Shown piece by piece: positions 50,876 through 56,208 of a stretch of DNA of 64,000 nucleotides; the first letter of the stretch is position 1, and every line of letters begins with the position of its first letter. The DNA comes from Parapontixanthobacter aurantiacus (GTDB lineage Bacteria; Pseudomonadota; Alphaproteobacteria; Sphingomonadales; Sphingomonadaceae). Made by a program: the position numbers and the translations under genes. The DNA is taken from contig NZ_WTYW01000001.1 in NCBI RefSeq assembly GCF_009827635.1, positions 1,258,001 through 1,322,000 on the forward strand, written 5' to 3'. The notes under the pieces are model-generated. The model made no database searches. It was not told where the DNA came from and saw only the letters and a program-made list of their open reading frames with translations.

Positions 50876-51658
50876 ATGGATCAAATGACCGAACGGATGA
50901 TCGAGATAGCGGACGGCTTCTGGTCGATCCGCGGAGAGATGAAGGTCGCGGGGCTCGTCGATTTCGGCACGCATTGCAGCCTCGCTGCATTATCCGACGA
51001 CCGCTTCGTCATGCTCGACAGTTACACCCTGCCGCCCGATATTCATGCAGAGGTGGACCGCCTGACGAAAGGCGGCGAAAAGCTTGCCGCGATCGTGAAC
51101 CTGCATCCATTCCACACGCTGCATTGCGAGTGGATGCACGAAGCCTATCCGCACGCGGACCTGTATGGGACGGCGCGCCATCACGAAAAGCTACCGCACC
51201 TCCCCTGGGTCGAGGATACTTGCGAGGAAGGGGCGATAAACGAGCGGTTCGGGGAGGATTTCGCCTTTTCAGTACCGCAGGGCGTCCCGCTCGTTTGCGA
51301 AGGGCGGCACATTCATTTTTCCTCGATCCTCGCCTATCACAAGGGCAGCCGCACGATCCATGTCGACGACACGCTTTCCTTCCTCGATGCAGGCTTTCCC
51401 CTGTCGCTCCTGCCGATTGCAGGCCGGTTCGACTTTCATCCAAGCCTTGCCCGCGCGCTGGAGAAACGCGCCGGCGCAGCGGACGAATTTCGCGAATGGG
51501 CGATCGAACTCGGCATCGCATGGAGCGAGGCGCGGCATCTGGTGACGGCGCATGATGCGGTCCTGACGCTCGATCCGCCGGAATTCGCGGACCGGATCGG
51601 GGCGGCGCTCGGGCGCGTCAAACCGCTGCTCGACCGCCATCGCAGGCAATACGGCTAG
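50876..51658 (+). CDS. Metallo-beta-lactamase-fold-like protein with altered motif
   Basis: Encodes a 260-residue protein whose N-terminus (EIADGFWSIRGEMKVAGLVD) and overall pattern fit the metallo-hydrolase/DUF4336 group. Where the HxHxDH motif is expected it reads NLHPFHTLHCEWMHEAYP, so some metal ligands differ. A possible metal His appears later in AHDAVLTLDPPEFADRIG. Its substrate is unknown and it may be non-catalytic. It lies between the divergent mgtC-like gene and the convergent ornithine decarboxylase. Confidence 0.65.
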   Translation: MDQMTERMIEIADGFWSIRGEMKVAGLVDFGTHCSLAALSDDRFVMLDSYTLPPDIHAEVDRLTKGGEKLAAIVNLHPFHTLHCEWMHEAYPHADLYGTARHHEKLPHLPWVEDTCEEGAINERFGEDFAFSVPQGVPLVCEGRHIHFSSILAYHKGSRTIHVDDTLSFLDAGFPLSLLPIAGRFDFHPSLARALEKRAGAADEFREWAIELGIAWSEARHLVTAHDAVLTLDPPEFADRIGAALGRVKPLLDRHRRQYG

Positions 51659-51715: not shown

Positions 51716-53011
51716 TTAGCGAAGGCTGACCACGTTATCGGCTTCCTCGCGCTTGCGGCTGCCGTCGTAGAGGCTCGCCATCGGCTCGTCTTCGACCACG
51801 ATCCGCTCGGCCGCGCCGAACCCGTTGAAGTCGGTCTTCATCGCCGCGCCATAGGCTCCAAGCATCCCGATCTCGATATAGTCGCCTGCCTGGATGTCCT
51901 CCGGCAAGGGAAACGGACCCTTCATGTAATCCGCATCGTCGCAGGTGGGACCGTAGAAGGCGAAGTCCATCTCCGGCTTGATGAGATCGTCCTCCAGCGC
52001 ACGCACCGGGAAGTTCCAGCCGATATGCGCGGCATCGAACAACGCACCATAGGCTCCGTCATTGATGTAGAGCTCGTCACCGCGGCGTTTTTCGACGCGC
52101 ACCACGATCGACGAATACTCCGCGCACAGCGCGCGGCCCGGCTCGCACCACAATTCGGCATTGTAGGCGATGGGCAGCGAATAGAACTGCTTGTGGATGA
52201 TCGCGAAATAGTCTTCCAGCGGCGGCGGCTCCATACCCGGATAGACCGAGGGGAACCCACCGCCGACATCGACCATGTCGATAACGACACCCGCTTCGGC
52301 GATGGCGACGCGCACCCGCTCCAGCGCTTGGACATAGGCGAAGGGCGTCATTGCCTGACTGCCCACGTGGAAGCACAGGCCGAGCCAGTCGCAATGCTGC
52401 CGCGCTTCCTGCAAGAGTGCAGGCGCTTCGGTCAGGTCGCAGCCGAACTTGCTCGCCAGCGACAGTTCCGAATATTCGCTCGATACGCGCAGGCGGATAC
52501 ACAGCCGCAGGTCCGTTGCCGGTTTTCCGTCAGCATCACGGCAAGCCTCGACGATCTTGTTCAGTTCCTCGACCGTATCGAGGCTGAAGGTGCGGCAGCC
52601 ATGCTCGTGATAGGCCTCGGAAATTGCGCGCGGCGTCTTGACCGGGTGCATGAAGCACAGCTTCGCCTCCGGCAGGGTGGAGGCGACCAAGCGCACCTCT
52701 GCGATCGAGGCGACGTCGTAATGCGTGACGCCCGCATCCCAGAGAACGCGCAGGAGATCAGGCGAAGGATTGGCCTTCACCGCATAGAGCGACTTTCCGG
52801 GAAACTTCTCGACGAAGAACCGCGCCGCACGGCGAGCTGCGTGCGGACGGTTGAGAATGACCGGTTCGTCGGGCGCGAGGGCGCGGACTACAGCCGTGGC
52901 GTCGGGAAAATGGTGCAACTCAAGGGACCCCCTAAACATCGAAGTTTGTTCAAGCCGGCGAGCATTGGGAAGTCCCCTGTTGTGCAGGGGCTCGTCAGCG
53001 GAAGCGCGCAT
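51716..53011 (-). CDS. Ornithine decarboxylase (type III PLP fold)
   Basis: Encodes a PLP-dependent amino-acid decarboxylase of the alanine-racemase fold, most like ornithine decarboxylase. The cofactor lysine is in KSLYAVKANPSPDLLRVLWD, the glycine-rich loop is DMVDVGGGFPSVYPGMEP, and AFYGPTCDDADYM holds the Cys typical of ornithine rather than diaminopimelate decarboxylases. It probably makes putrescine. Starts at 53026 (GTG), 53011 (ATG) and 52939 (ATG) are possible; none has a clear Shine-Dalgarno. It follows nspC by about 120 bases on the same strand. Confidence 0.9.
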   Translation of the reverse strand: MRASADEPLHNRGLPNARRLEQTSMFRGSLELHHFPDATAVVRALAPDEPVILNRPHAARRAARFFVEKFPGKSLYAVKANPSPDLLRVLWDAGVTHYDVASIAEVRLVASTLPEAKLCFMHPVKTPRAISEAYHEHGCRTFSLDTVEELNKIVEACRDADGKPATDLRLCIRLRVSSEYSELSLASKFGCDLTEAPALLQEARQHCDWLGLCFHVGSQAMTPFAYVQALERVRVAIAEAGVVIDMVDVGGGFPSVYPGMEPPPLEDYFAIIHKQFYSLPIAYNAELWCEPGRALCAEYSSIVVRVEKRRGDELYINDGAYGALFDAAHIGWNFPVRALEDDLIKPEMDFAFYGPTCDDADYMKGPFPLPEDIQAGDYIEIGMLGAYGAAMKTDFNGFGAAERIVVEDEPMASLYDGSRKREEADNVVSLR

Positions 53012-53130
53012 ATAATCTTTCGTCACGGATTCGCAACGGATATTCGTGGCTCCGTGTCCGAATTATGCGGCCAATCGGGCAATAGCGCGGATGCGCTGAC
53101 GCAGCCCTGAACGATGCGGCCTCGTGCGCC

Positions 53131-54309
53131 TCAACTCAGGCGGTTGCGAAAATCCTCGTAACCGAAGGAGCGCACCTGTTCGAGCGTGTCGGTTTCGCTG
53201 TCCCACAGCCAGATCGAAGGCAGCGGGACGCCGTTGAACGTGTTGGTCTTGACCATGGAGTAATGCGCCTGATCGAGAAAGGCGATCGGCTTGCCGACCT
53301 CCGCCCCGCCGACGATCCGGTAGTCGCCGATGACATCGCCCGCGAGGCACGATGGCCCGCCGAGCCTTACGGCGGGAACGTCCTCGCCCGTCGCTTCGCC
53401 CAGCATCGCCGGGCGATAGGGTGCTTCGATCACATCGGGCATGTGGCAAGTGGCAGAGATGTCGGTGATGGCGACGGGTACTTCGTTGAACCCGGTATCG
53501 AGGATCGTCCCGACGAGGATGCCCGCATCGAGCGCCACCGCCTCGCCCGGCTCGAGATAGATTTCCGCGCCGGTGTCGTCCTTCGCGTCCCTCAGGAACT
53601 CGACCAGTTCCTCGCGCTGGTAATCGGCGCGGGTGATGTGATGCCCGCCGCCCATATTGATCCATTTGATCTGGCCGAACCACGGTTCGATCGCGTCGAA
53701 GACCTTGTCCCAGGTTGCCTTCAGAGGCTCGAAATCCTGCTCGCACAGATTGTGGAAGTGGATGCCGTCGACCCCCTCCATGTGTTCTTCGGTCAGCTGG
53801 TCGATGGGAAAGCCGAGGCGGCTGCCGGGCGAGGACGGATCGTAGCGCGGCACTTCGCCGGTCGGCACCTGCGGGTTGAGGCGCAGGCCGACATCGAAGG
53901 TCTGACCGCTGCTCCGCGCATGGTCGAGGATGAGGGCGGCGCGGCTCATCTGCCCCGGAGAATTGAAGATCACGTGGTCCGACAGCCGGCAGATCTCCTC
54001 GAGGTCCTCCGGCTTGTAGGCCGCGCAATAGGTACTGATCTCGCCGTCGTAGAACTCGGAAGCGAGCCGGGCTTCCCACAGCCCGCTGGTGCAGGTGCCG
54101 TCGAGATATTCCCCGATGATGGGCGCCGCGGACCACATGCTGAAGGCTTTCAGCGCCGAGAGCATCCTGATCTCGGCCGCGTCCCGGATTTCGGCAAGGA
54201 TGCGGCAATTCTCCCGCAGCTTCGCCGCATCGACGACGAAGGACGGGCTGTCGACGCGCGTGGGGTCGAAATGGGCGAAGGCGCCCGGATCGCCGGCTCT
54301 CGTTTCCAT
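53131..54309 (-). CDS. nspC: Carboxynorspermidine/carboxyspermidine decarboxylase
   Basis: Encodes a 392-residue PLP enzyme related to NspC, which decarboxylates carboxyspermidine or carboxynorspermidine. The lysine is in MLSALKAFSMWSAAPIIGEY, the glycine loop is INMGGGHHITRADYQ, and GGPSCLAGDVIGDYRIVG matches the family's C-terminal active-site region. The start is the ATG at 54309, overlapping the upstream gene by one base (TGATG). Together with its partner it forms the aspartate-semialdehyde route from putrescine to spermidine. Confidence 0.9.
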   Translation of the reverse strand: METRAGDPGAFAHFDPTRVDSPSFVVDAAKLRENCRILAEIRDAAEIRMLSALKAFSMWSAAPIIGEYLDGTCTSGLWEARLASEFYDGEISTYCAAYKPEDLEEICRLSDHVIFNSPGQMSRAALILDHARSSGQTFDVGLRLNPQVPTGEVPRYDPSSPGSRLGFPIDQLTEEHMEGVDGIHFHNLCEQDFEPLKATWDKVFDAIEPWFGQIKWINMGGGHHITRADYQREELVEFLRDAKDDTGAEIYLEPGEAVALDAGILVGTILDTGFNEVPVAITDISATCHMPDVIEAPYRPAMLGEATGEDVPAVRLGGPSCLAGDVIGDYRIVGGAEVGKPIAFLDQAHYSMVKTNTFNGVPLPSIWLWDSETDTLEQVRSFGYEDFRNRLS

Positions 54310-55520
54310 CAGAAGTCGACCGGGCCGTCCAGTTCCTTCACGTCCCACGGCAAGCCGTGCTCGTTCAGCATCGCCATAAAGGGGTCGGGATCGAACTCTT
54401 CCATGTTGAAGACGCCCTCGCCCTGCCACTTGCCCTCGACCACCATCGCGCTGCCGATCATCGCCGGAACGCCCGTCGTGTAGCTGACCGCCTGGTTGCC
54501 GGTCTCGCGATAGGCTTCCTCGTGGTCGCAGATATTGTTGATGTAGAAGGTCTTCTCACCCGAACCGTCGAGCGCCTCGCCGGTCGCGATGACGCCGATA
54601 TTGGTCTTGCCCTTGGTCGTCTCGCCCAGCGTTTCGGGCTTGGGGAGCACCGCGGCGAGGAATTGCAGCGGGATGATGTCGCGGCCCTGATACTTGATCG
54701 GCTCGATGCCCGTCATCCCGACGTTCTGAAGCACGGTGAGATGCTTGATGTATTCGTCGCCGAACGTCATCCAGAACCGCGCGCGTTCCAGTTCGGGGAC
54801 GAACTTGGCGAGGCTTTCTAGCTCCTCGTGATACATGAGATAGGCGTTGCGCGTTCCCACTTCCTCGAAGTCGAAGGCGGTGCGCACCTGCATCGCCGGG
54901 GTCTCCACCCATTCCCCGTTTTCCCAGTGGCGCGCCGGGGCGGTCACTTCGCGAATATTGATTTCCGGATTAAAGTTCGTCGCGAACGCCTGCCCGTGAT
55001 CGCCGCCATTGCAATCGAGAATGTCGAGCTGGCGGATCGTCTTCAGTTTGTGCTTCTTCAGCCACATGGTGAAGACGCTGGTGACGCCCGGATCGAACCC
55101 GCTGCCGAGCAGCGCCATCAGCCCTGCCTCCTTGAAGCGGTCGTGATAGGCCCATTGCCACTTGTACTCGAACTTCGCCTCGTCCTTCGGCTCGTAATTG
55201 GCGGTATCGAGGTAATCGACCCCCGCCTCGAGACAGGCATCCATGATCGGCAAATCCTGATAGGGTAGCGCCAGATTGACGACGAGCGCCGGCTGCACCT
55301 TGCGAATGAGGTTCACCATCGCCGGGACTTCCTCAGCGTCGATCTCGTAGGTCCTGATCTCGACCCCGGCGCGGTCCTTCACGCTCGCCGCGATCGCATC
55401 GCATTTTGACAGCGTCCGGCTCGCCAGGCGAATGTCCGTGAAGATGTCCTTGTTGAACGCCATCTTGTGAACGCAGACCGAGCTTACCCCGCCCGCGCCG
55501 ATTACCAGTACTCTTGCCAT
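54309..55520 (-). CDS. Carboxynorspermidine/carboxyspermidine dehydrogenase (saccharopine dehydrogenase family)
   Basis: Encodes a 403-residue NADPH-type dehydrogenase. The Rossmann start is MARVLVIGAGGVSSVCVHKM, followed by the saccharopine-dehydrogenase pattern YLDTANYEPKDEAKFEYKWQ. Next to nspC it is most likely the synthase joining L-aspartate semialdehyde with putrescine by reductive amination. A lysine-pathway saccharopine dehydrogenase is less likely given the neighbours. The three polyamine genes read one way, with this gene first. Confidence 0.88.
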   Translation of the reverse strand: MARVLVIGAGGVSSVCVHKMAFNKDIFTDIRLASRTLSKCDAIAASVKDRAGVEIRTYEIDAEEVPAMVNLIRKVQPALVVNLALPYQDLPIMDACLEAGVDYLDTANYEPKDEAKFEYKWQWAYHDRFKEAGLMALLGSGFDPGVTSVFTMWLKKHKLKTIRQLDILDCNGGDHGQAFATNFNPEINIREVTAPARHWENGEWVETPAMQVRTAFDFEEVGTRNAYLMYHEELESLAKFVPELERARFWMTFGDEYIKHLTVLQNVGMTGIEPIKYQGRDIIPLQFLAAVLPKPETLGETTKGKTNIGVIATGEALDGSGEKTFYINNICDHEEAYRETGNQAVSYTTGVPAMIGSAMVVEGKWQGEGVFNMEEFDPDPFMAMLNEHGLPWDVKELDGPVDF

Positions 55521-55758: not shown

Positions 55759-56208
55759 ATGCAGGCTCAGATACTCGCACCCGCCGCAGTGCTTATCGTG
55801 TGGTCGCTCATCGTCCTGTTCTGGATGGCGGGCAAGCGCCTGCCTGCGATGAAGCAGGCGGGAGGCGGCCTCGGCAAGGCGAAGCCGGGCGGCCGCGGAC
55901 AGGATCTGGAAGGCGTGCTGCCGGACAGGATCAACTGGCCGTCCCACAATTATGCGCATCTCATGGAACAGCCGACGCTGTTCTACGCGAGCGTCCTCAT
56001 CCTCGCCATCATGGGAGCGGCGGCGATCGACGTGCTGCTTGCCTGGATCTACGTCGCGGTCCGCATAATCCACTCGCTGTGGCAGATCCTCGTCAACACG
56101 ATACCCCTGCGCTTCCTCCTCTTTATGATTTCCACGCTGGCGCTGTTCGTGCTGGCCCTGCGCGCGGCCTATGCCACGCTGTTCCACGACCCCGGAGTTC
56201 TCGCATGA
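55759..56208 (+). CDS. MAPEG-family membrane protein 1
   Basis: Encodes a 149-residue membrane protein of the MAPEG type (membrane-associated proteins in eicosanoid and glutathione metabolism). It begins with a span (ILAPAAVLIVWSLIVLFWMA) followed by a cytoplasmic loop, then NYAHLMEQPTLFYASVLILA and LAWIYVAVRIIHSLWQILVN. Bacterial MAPEG proteins often have glutathione transferase or peroxidase activity; this one is not proven. It overlaps the next MAPEG gene by four bases (ATGA). Confidence 0.87.
   Translation: MQAQILAPAAVLIVWSLIVLFWMAGKRLPAMKQAGGGLGKAKPGGRGQDLEGVLPDRINWPSHNYAHLMEQPTLFYASVLILAIMGAAAIDVLLAWIYVAVRIIHSLWQILVNTIPLRFLLFMISTLALFVLALRAAYATLFHDPGVLA

Follow-up and report, generated by a model that had tools for sequence, protein, structure and literature searches.

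A divergent odc1-type leader RNA before ornithine decarboxylase at a carboxyspermidine locus of Parapontixanthobacter aurantiacus

Spermidine is made in Vibrio and Campylobacter by carboxyspermidine dehydrogenase (CASDH) and carboxyspermidine decarboxylase (CASDC). The same pathway is found in Agrobacterium and Sinorhizobium (PMC13293326). The stretch of Parapontixanthobacter aurantiacus DNA analysed here (64,000 nucleotides, positions 1,258,001 to 1,322,000 of contig NZ_WTYW01000001.1; the window) encodes these two enzymes together with an ornithine decarboxylase (ODC), and the ODC gene is preceded by a leader RNA related to the published odc1 motif. The pathway resembles those of the four genera above in its two enzymes, its putrescine substrate and its independence of S-adenosylmethionine (AdoMet) decarboxylase. 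Unlike in S. meliloti, for which PMC13293326 gives a predicted two-gene casdc-casdh operon plus a homospermidine synthase, ODC lies just downstream, behind a leader of its own. Spermidine synthesis from aspartate semialdehyde is already known in alphaproteobacteria (PMC13293326, PMC11999265) and is in itself ordinary. A literature search on carboxyspermidine and sphingomonad terms gave no mention of carboxyspermidine among the matches listed, which is weak evidence.

The odc1 motif (uORF-25-1) was described in PMC8632094 from 272 alphaproteobacterial examples in front of ODC, with a ribosome-binding site held in a helix, a pseudoknot, two UUG starts and an upstream open reading frame (uORF) of 11 residues; reporter data in E. 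coli are given for the Sphingomonas echinoides motif. The window leader likewise has a helix that sequesters the ribosome-binding site, two starts two bases apart and an 11-codon uORF before ODC, and a pseudoknot is proposed for it. It differs from the published motif in lacking the CGCAA loop, in the letters of its pseudoknot and in an added hairpin over the strand complementary to the Shine-Dalgarno (SD) sequence (the anti-SD strand). The ODC leader was considered as an undescribed element, and this was rejected because the motif is published; a literature search for "odc1 motif" found PMC8632094 alone.

Other known RNA elements match less well. The speF RNA (RF00518) also leads an alphaproteobacterial ODC gene (PMC1273637), but its sequence and length differ (a 153-position model) and the ODC beside speF is 29-33% identical. 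It was rejected as a candidate, since searches at E 1 and at E 10 gave no hit in the window region and genome G000 had none either; RF00518 occurs in 4/142 alphaproteobacterial genomes (three over the cut-off), and not in G000 or G005. The spermidine riboswitch, a SAM-I variant (PMC10853860), likewise places polyamine synthesis under RNA control, but as described it has an aptamer of the SAM-I type and works through termination of transcription. No family of Rfam 15 matches the leader of the window or of 12 relatives: nothing in the window region exceeds the gathering score, two sub-threshold snoRNA matches (53099-53166; E 0.57 and 3.8) lie outside the leader, and the matches listed for the 12 relatives' loci are also below the gathering score and outside the leaders.

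The three enzymes probably make spermidine, and the odc1-type leader would control ODC separately, with translation of its mini-ORF most likely limiting ODC synthesis. We place the probability of this reading at about 0.6.

The route to spermidine

CASDH has the saccharopine-dehydrogenase fold, and its matches among solved proteins include PDB 4ina, a "saccharopine dehydrogenase" (E-value: 2.6e-161), and the carboxyspermidine dehydrogenase 8deb (Table 1). CASDC matches TIGR01047 (nspC) with 367.5 bits, under the curated cut-off of 409.05, and PDB 9eaf with an E-value of 1.7e-107. ODC is of the pyridoxal phosphate (PLP)-barrel type, with the conserved domain PF02784 (Orn_Arg_deC; 117.6 bits) and similarity to PDB 5gjm (E-value: 1.1e-41), one of its matches to lysine/ornithine decarboxylases. 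None of the three proteins reaches an NCBIfam curated cut-off. Because the best NCBIfam model of ODC is lysA (137 bits, well short of the cut-off of 297.9) and the genome has a separate LysA, it is the PDB matches and the neighbouring genes that support the name ODC.

The host genome (2,895,130 bases, 99.99% complete) contains three PF02784 proteins: the window ODC, LysA (443.5 bits) and an exosortase-associated decarboxylase (551.3 bits). The exosortase-A-type PLP decarboxylase (TIGR03099) stands beside an AMP-binding enzyme at locus L002 (C1:1066333-1070076 of the same genome). An asd gene is present elsewhere (PF02774; E-value: 2.9e-57). Neither AdoMet_dc (PF02675) nor Spermine_synth (PF01564) has a match in the host genome, whereas the same searches were positive in 8/14 and 11/14 control genomes, respectively; the eukaryote-type PF01536 was not searched. 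The open frames that match PF03435 do not exceed 405 residues in the host genome or 471 residues in six genomes of genus g2; none was identified, and a homospermidine synthase may be among them.

Conversion of ornithine to putrescine, carboxyspermidine and then spermidine is thus well supported as the sole route seen in the genome (PF01276-type decarboxylases were not searched), on the strength of enzyme family membership and the lack of a speD or speE match. An earlier note on this DNA had proposed spermidine synthesis independent of AdoMet decarboxylase, with absence of speD and speE as its check; the CASDH and CASDC families, the ODC, the asd gene and the empty searches for PF02675 and PF01564 in the host genome all bear it out. 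It is quite unlikely that the main product is instead another polyamine (spermine or thermospermine, norspermidine, or aminopropylcadaverine) formed through other substrates of CASDH or of the decarboxylase. The top PDB match of the window decarboxylase is a lysine/ornithine decarboxylase, and CASDH and CASDC of other bacteria do make spermine and thermospermine according to PMC11999265, but the same paper ties genomes with ODC to the carboxyspermidine route.

Table 1. Features of the spermidine locus and the ODC leader (window coordinates)
Feature	Position	Strand	Evidence
Carboxyspermidine dehydrogenase (CASDH)	54309..55520	-	403 aa; Sacchrp_dh_NADP/C domains; PDB 8deb, E 2e-158
Carboxyspermidine decarboxylase (CASDC, NspC-like)	53131..54309	-	392 aa; TIGR01047 and PDB 9eaf
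Ornithine (ODC-type) decarboxylase	51716..52918	-	400 aa, start TTG; Orn_Arg_deC, PDB matches
Divergent odc1 leader RNA	52916..53003	-	33.4 bits (E 3.3e-8 in 64 kb) with a covariance model built on 26 relatives
5' strand of proposed pseudoknot stem	52990..52999	-	9/10 pairs with 52954-52963
3' strand of proposed pseudoknot stem	52954..52963	-	complementarity
Anti-Shine-Dalgarno strand	52968..52976	-	9/9 pairs (with G-U) to 52924-52932; duplex -14.5 kcal/mol
Shine-Dalgarno strand before both start codons	52924..52932	-	complementarity, predicted fold
Overlapping mini-ORF	52888..52923	-	11 codons from TTG 52923, then TAG 52890-52888; not in the ODC frame
Promoter-like hexamers upstream of leader	53009..53036	-	by eye

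The ODC leader and its mini-ORF

The list of open reading frames gives the ODC frame as 51716-53026 (436 aa, from GTG 53026), and the earlier note took this GTG as the start and missed the odc1 leader. The GTG start is judged wrong because the upstream DNA of relatives converges on an SD sequence followed by NTG, two bases and TTG. The start is most likely TTG 52918, which would make 52919-53130 leader and intergenic DNA and not ODC coding sequence. Upstream of ODC, conservation is limited to the odc1 bases. The alternative that the leader is coding, as an N-terminal extension from GTG 53026, was rejected, as the protein match of many relatives crosses upstream stop codons.

Leaders were compared for 207 relatives and the window (208 in total; 2/209 loci had too little upstream sequence). 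The motif is present in 196 of these and missing from 12 (L188-L199), which without exception belong to other families of the order, one of them to f8. ODC starts with TTG in 193/196 and with ATG in 3/196. A 9-of-9 complement of the SD sequence lies within 150 bases upstream in 155/196 leaders, where shuffling would give 7.9, and the same 9-mer is present in 143. In an alignment of 55 of the 196 leaders chosen for diversity (A1), 96.6% of cells are paired and 16 are double-change cells, values of which neither was reached by any of 500 shuffles; with slid partners the best version has 59.8% of cells paired. A second alignment (A2) has a biased pair count, its rows having been picked by a parser that requires the stem, and A1 is the fairer of the two. 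In most leaders the SD sequence is predicted to be paired, its mean probability of being unpaired having a median of 0.0016 over the 196. The CGCAA block is missing from the 150 bases upstream in 5/196 leaders, of which L039, L163 and L173 are one base off by eye. Two further features were noted by eye. In L010, L016, L017, L020 and L029 the anti-SD letters have changed and pairing with the SD sequence is possible in a shifted register, as also in L097, L099, L100, L116 and L117; and the linker before the SD sequence often carries a GCAA-type hairpin with matched changes of stem letters (e.g. L091, L103, L117).

The frame opened by the first NTG, the mini-ORF, is exactly 11 codons long in 186/196 leaders (stops: TAG 172, TGA 8, TAA 6) and has 16, 10, 9 or 6 codons in the other 10. 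Its length therefore varies, contrary to the statement in PMC8632094, and this is a new observation. When ODC codons were resampled synonymously, a stop at codon 11 was expected in 14.0 leaders, compared with 186 observed among 193. The valine at ODC codon 10 is encoded by GTA in 144/144 cases, while GTA makes up 3.6% of the valine codons from codon 31 onward in the same genes. The mini-ORF stop is evidently under strong selection, which is also new. A frameshift into ODC of the RF2 type is not supported, as 5/196 leaders have no TGA overlapping the first start and no conserved slippery codon was seen by eye ahead of the mini-ORF stop.

The residues are less fixed than the stop. ODC codon 7, whose third base doubles as the middle base in mini-ORF codon 9, uses GCC (67), GCG (50), GCA (39) and GCT (12) for alanine among the 169 distinct sequences, with a third-base entropy of 1.81 bits, similar to that of the downstream alanine codons 28 and 31. 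Residue 9 of the mini-ORF thus varies freely, and a fixed stop combined with a free residue suggests that the function lies at least partly in where termination occurs.

The model favoured here can be set out as follows. ODC would make putrescine from ornithine, CASDH would condense putrescine reductively with aspartate semialdehyde to carboxyspermidine, and CASDC would decarboxylate this to spermidine. As the entry enzyme, ODC is probably controlled apart from CASDH and CASDC, on a separate transcript. In its leader, the long-range helix would close the ribosome-binding site, with the pseudoknot competing with this fold or stabilizing it, and bound ribosomes would choose between TTG 52923, which opens the 11-codon dead-end frame, and TTG 52918, which opens ODC. 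The conserved mini-ORF stop is found 28 bases downstream of the ODC start. Given the usual size of the ribosome footprint, a ribosome terminating there would sit on or beside the ODC initiation region, and ODC synthesis is therefore most likely limited by translation of the mini-ORF, with a polyamine as the likely signal; the separate transcript, the ligand, the direction of control and the steric role of the terminating ribosome are what we infer, while the complementarity, the two starts, the selected stop and the lack of a match to an alternative pathway are read from the sequence.

The same genes could make spermidine under a leader that is a metabolite-binding riboswitch, with the 11-codon frame a mere decoy start whose stop quickly frees out-of-frame ribosomes. 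This is quite possible, if somewhat on the improbable side. The stem and loop are conserved, as a riboswitch would lead one to expect, and PMC8632094 names it as one possibility; no ligand is known for odc1, however, and resampled stops fall mostly at codon 21 (30%), codon 23 (20%) or beyond codon 40 (21%) and at codon 11 in 7%, which indicates that a particular position, and not just any stop, is kept.

Several observations weigh against the favoured model. Mutations M4-M6 beside the pseudoknot abolished expression of the main frame in E. coli (PMC8632094), and M4 and M5 hardly changed expression of the uORF; the conserved loop thus promotes use of the ODC start and does not serve repression only. 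That paper gives odc1 neither a ligand nor a settled mechanism. Double changes in A1 fall mainly in the pseudoknot stem (4/6 pairs), with 1/9 pairs in the SD helix, and a slide by +2 matches the structure in double-change pairs (5), though with 8 cells against 16. Among four folds, that of L214 does not pair the SD sequence with the anti-SD strand, whereas those of L011, L148 and the window do. The 9/10 complementarity of the window pseudoknot was also reached by 36/2000 shuffles and is thus only modestly beyond chance. Moreover, the leaders share ancestry and some are duplicates (169 of the 196 are distinct), so that the counts are not independent and no probabilities are quoted for them. Finally, PMC8632094 calls most mini-ORF residues conserved, and T is preferred at the third positions of ODC codons 4 and 5, favouring hydrophobic mini-ORF residues 6-7. 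The mini-ORF peptide accordingly seems to be constrained, but only partly.

These last two points favour an arrest peptide that senses a polyamine or ornithine at the stop codon. E. coli SpeFL and the mammalian AMD1 uORF are the cases for comparison. A short frame with a fixed stop beside a polyamine gene would suit such a peptide, but we consider it unlikely given that residue 9 is free and that the length differs in 10/196 leaders.

The window copy of the leader

The window score of 33.4 bits is the lowest among the 12 motif-bearing loci of its family that were tested; ten others, none of them used in building the covariance model, score 43-69 bits, and L173 scores 34.5. The CGCAA loop, which in relatives appears as CCGCAA before the pseudoknot strand, is absent, the letters of the pseudoknot stem differ from those of relatives, and a gained hairpin (-9.5 kcal/mol) overlaps the anti-SD strand. 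The unpaired probability of the SD sequence is 0.08, above that of 143 of the 196 leaders; the predicted fold pairs it with the anti-SD strand. The SD helix, the pseudoknot complementarity, TTG 52923, TTG 52918 and the TAG after 11 codons are all kept. A scanner found no sigma-70-like sites in the region, in which promoter-like hexamers upstream of the leader had been noted by eye.

Because the conserved loop block is missing, the copy is called a divergent relative of odc1 and not a typical member. It is a natural odc1 variant without CGCAA and with a re-lettered pseudoknot stem, which is new, and its response is probably altered or constitutive. The lowest family score and the lost CGCAA would also fit an element decaying in one species, with constitutive ODC there. 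Such decay is possible but rather doubtful; against it stands the survival of the SD helix, of the pseudoknot complementarity, of the two TTG starts and of the TAG that ends the mini-ORF.

Neighbourhood, distribution and significance

The flanks of ODC were examined in 180 relatives (L010-L089 and L120-L219). Both CASDH and CASDC lie near ODC in 98, CASDC only in 12, CASDH only in one and neither in 69, among which are loci whose flanks were short and 12 that come from other families; CASDC is thus near ODC in 110/180. Over the whole set of loci CASDC shares its strand with ODC in 124/126 (exceptions: L129 and L154), and the usual strand or order is not kept in L129, L154 and L173. CASDH abuts CASDC (gap of at most 10 bases) in only 14 of the 98, genes often being inserted between. 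The arrangement is evidently not due to chance, and the three genes behave as neighbours with frequent insertions, not as a fixed operon. In the window, three minus-strand frames lie within 51716-55520 and the family matches agree, as the earlier note had it, and the one-base overlap that it reported between the first two genes is real (the CASDC start and the CASDH stop share base 54309). Its grouping of all three in one locus holds as regards neighbourhood but not as one obvious operon, as ODC has its own leader.

The inserts between CASDH, CASDC and ODC differ among the five loci viewed (L010, L011, L013, L023, L034); those named by eye encode an NHL-repeat protein, a LemA-like protein, a macro-domain protein and a large membrane protein. 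Divergent from CASDH in the window is a gene of the MAPEG family (55759-56208, plus strand; PF01124 with 90 bits), and pfam01124 is among the genes listed downstream of odc1 in PMC8632094. A 260-residue frame (50876-51658, plus strand) is convergent with ODC and has no Pfam or NCBIfam match; at some of 80 loci, ODC is followed by a relative of it (54-64%).

The nearest named ODC relatives, up to 88% identical, are mostly Qipengyuania/Erythrobacter; NCBI taxonomy places Qipengyuania in the Sphingomonadales, Erythrobacteraceae, and the window's family as used in the searches (f1) is broader. This type of ODC occurs in 335/396 genomes of the order (at E 1e-80) and CASDC in 206/396 (at E 1e-60). 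Three genomes of genus g20 (G122, G316, G363) have no ODC match at E 1e-80, though most of the family has ODC. A class-wide scan with the covariance model under strict filters found the motif in 5/385 genomes, all of the window's family and with one copy each; other members of this family may be among the genomes missed. Two loci of family f8 (L186 and L187) share the layout but not the letters, begin with ATG and have a mini-ORF of six codons; they score 20.6 and 18.2 bits against 11.1 for the best unrelated sequence; the motif was not found at a third f8 locus (L197). This is weak but new evidence that two f8 genomes may keep the odc1 layout with other letters.

A bolder proposal, improbable as it stands, is that odc1 is a ribosome-positional switch, in which ribosomes that terminate or stall in response to polyamines at the fixed stop of the 11-codon frame, itself largely tolerant of sequence change, would physically block ODC initiation 28 bases upstream, and in which variants such as the window copy would have rewired the RNA half (other pseudoknot, no CGCAA) and kept the ribosome half. 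The enzymes themselves represent a known alternative route to spermidine, and the interest of the locus lies in its leader, which is known, unexplained and of unusual form here. The selected stop, the free residue and the loop-less variant together make ribosome position, peptide and RNA ligand testable against one another as the basis of ODC control.

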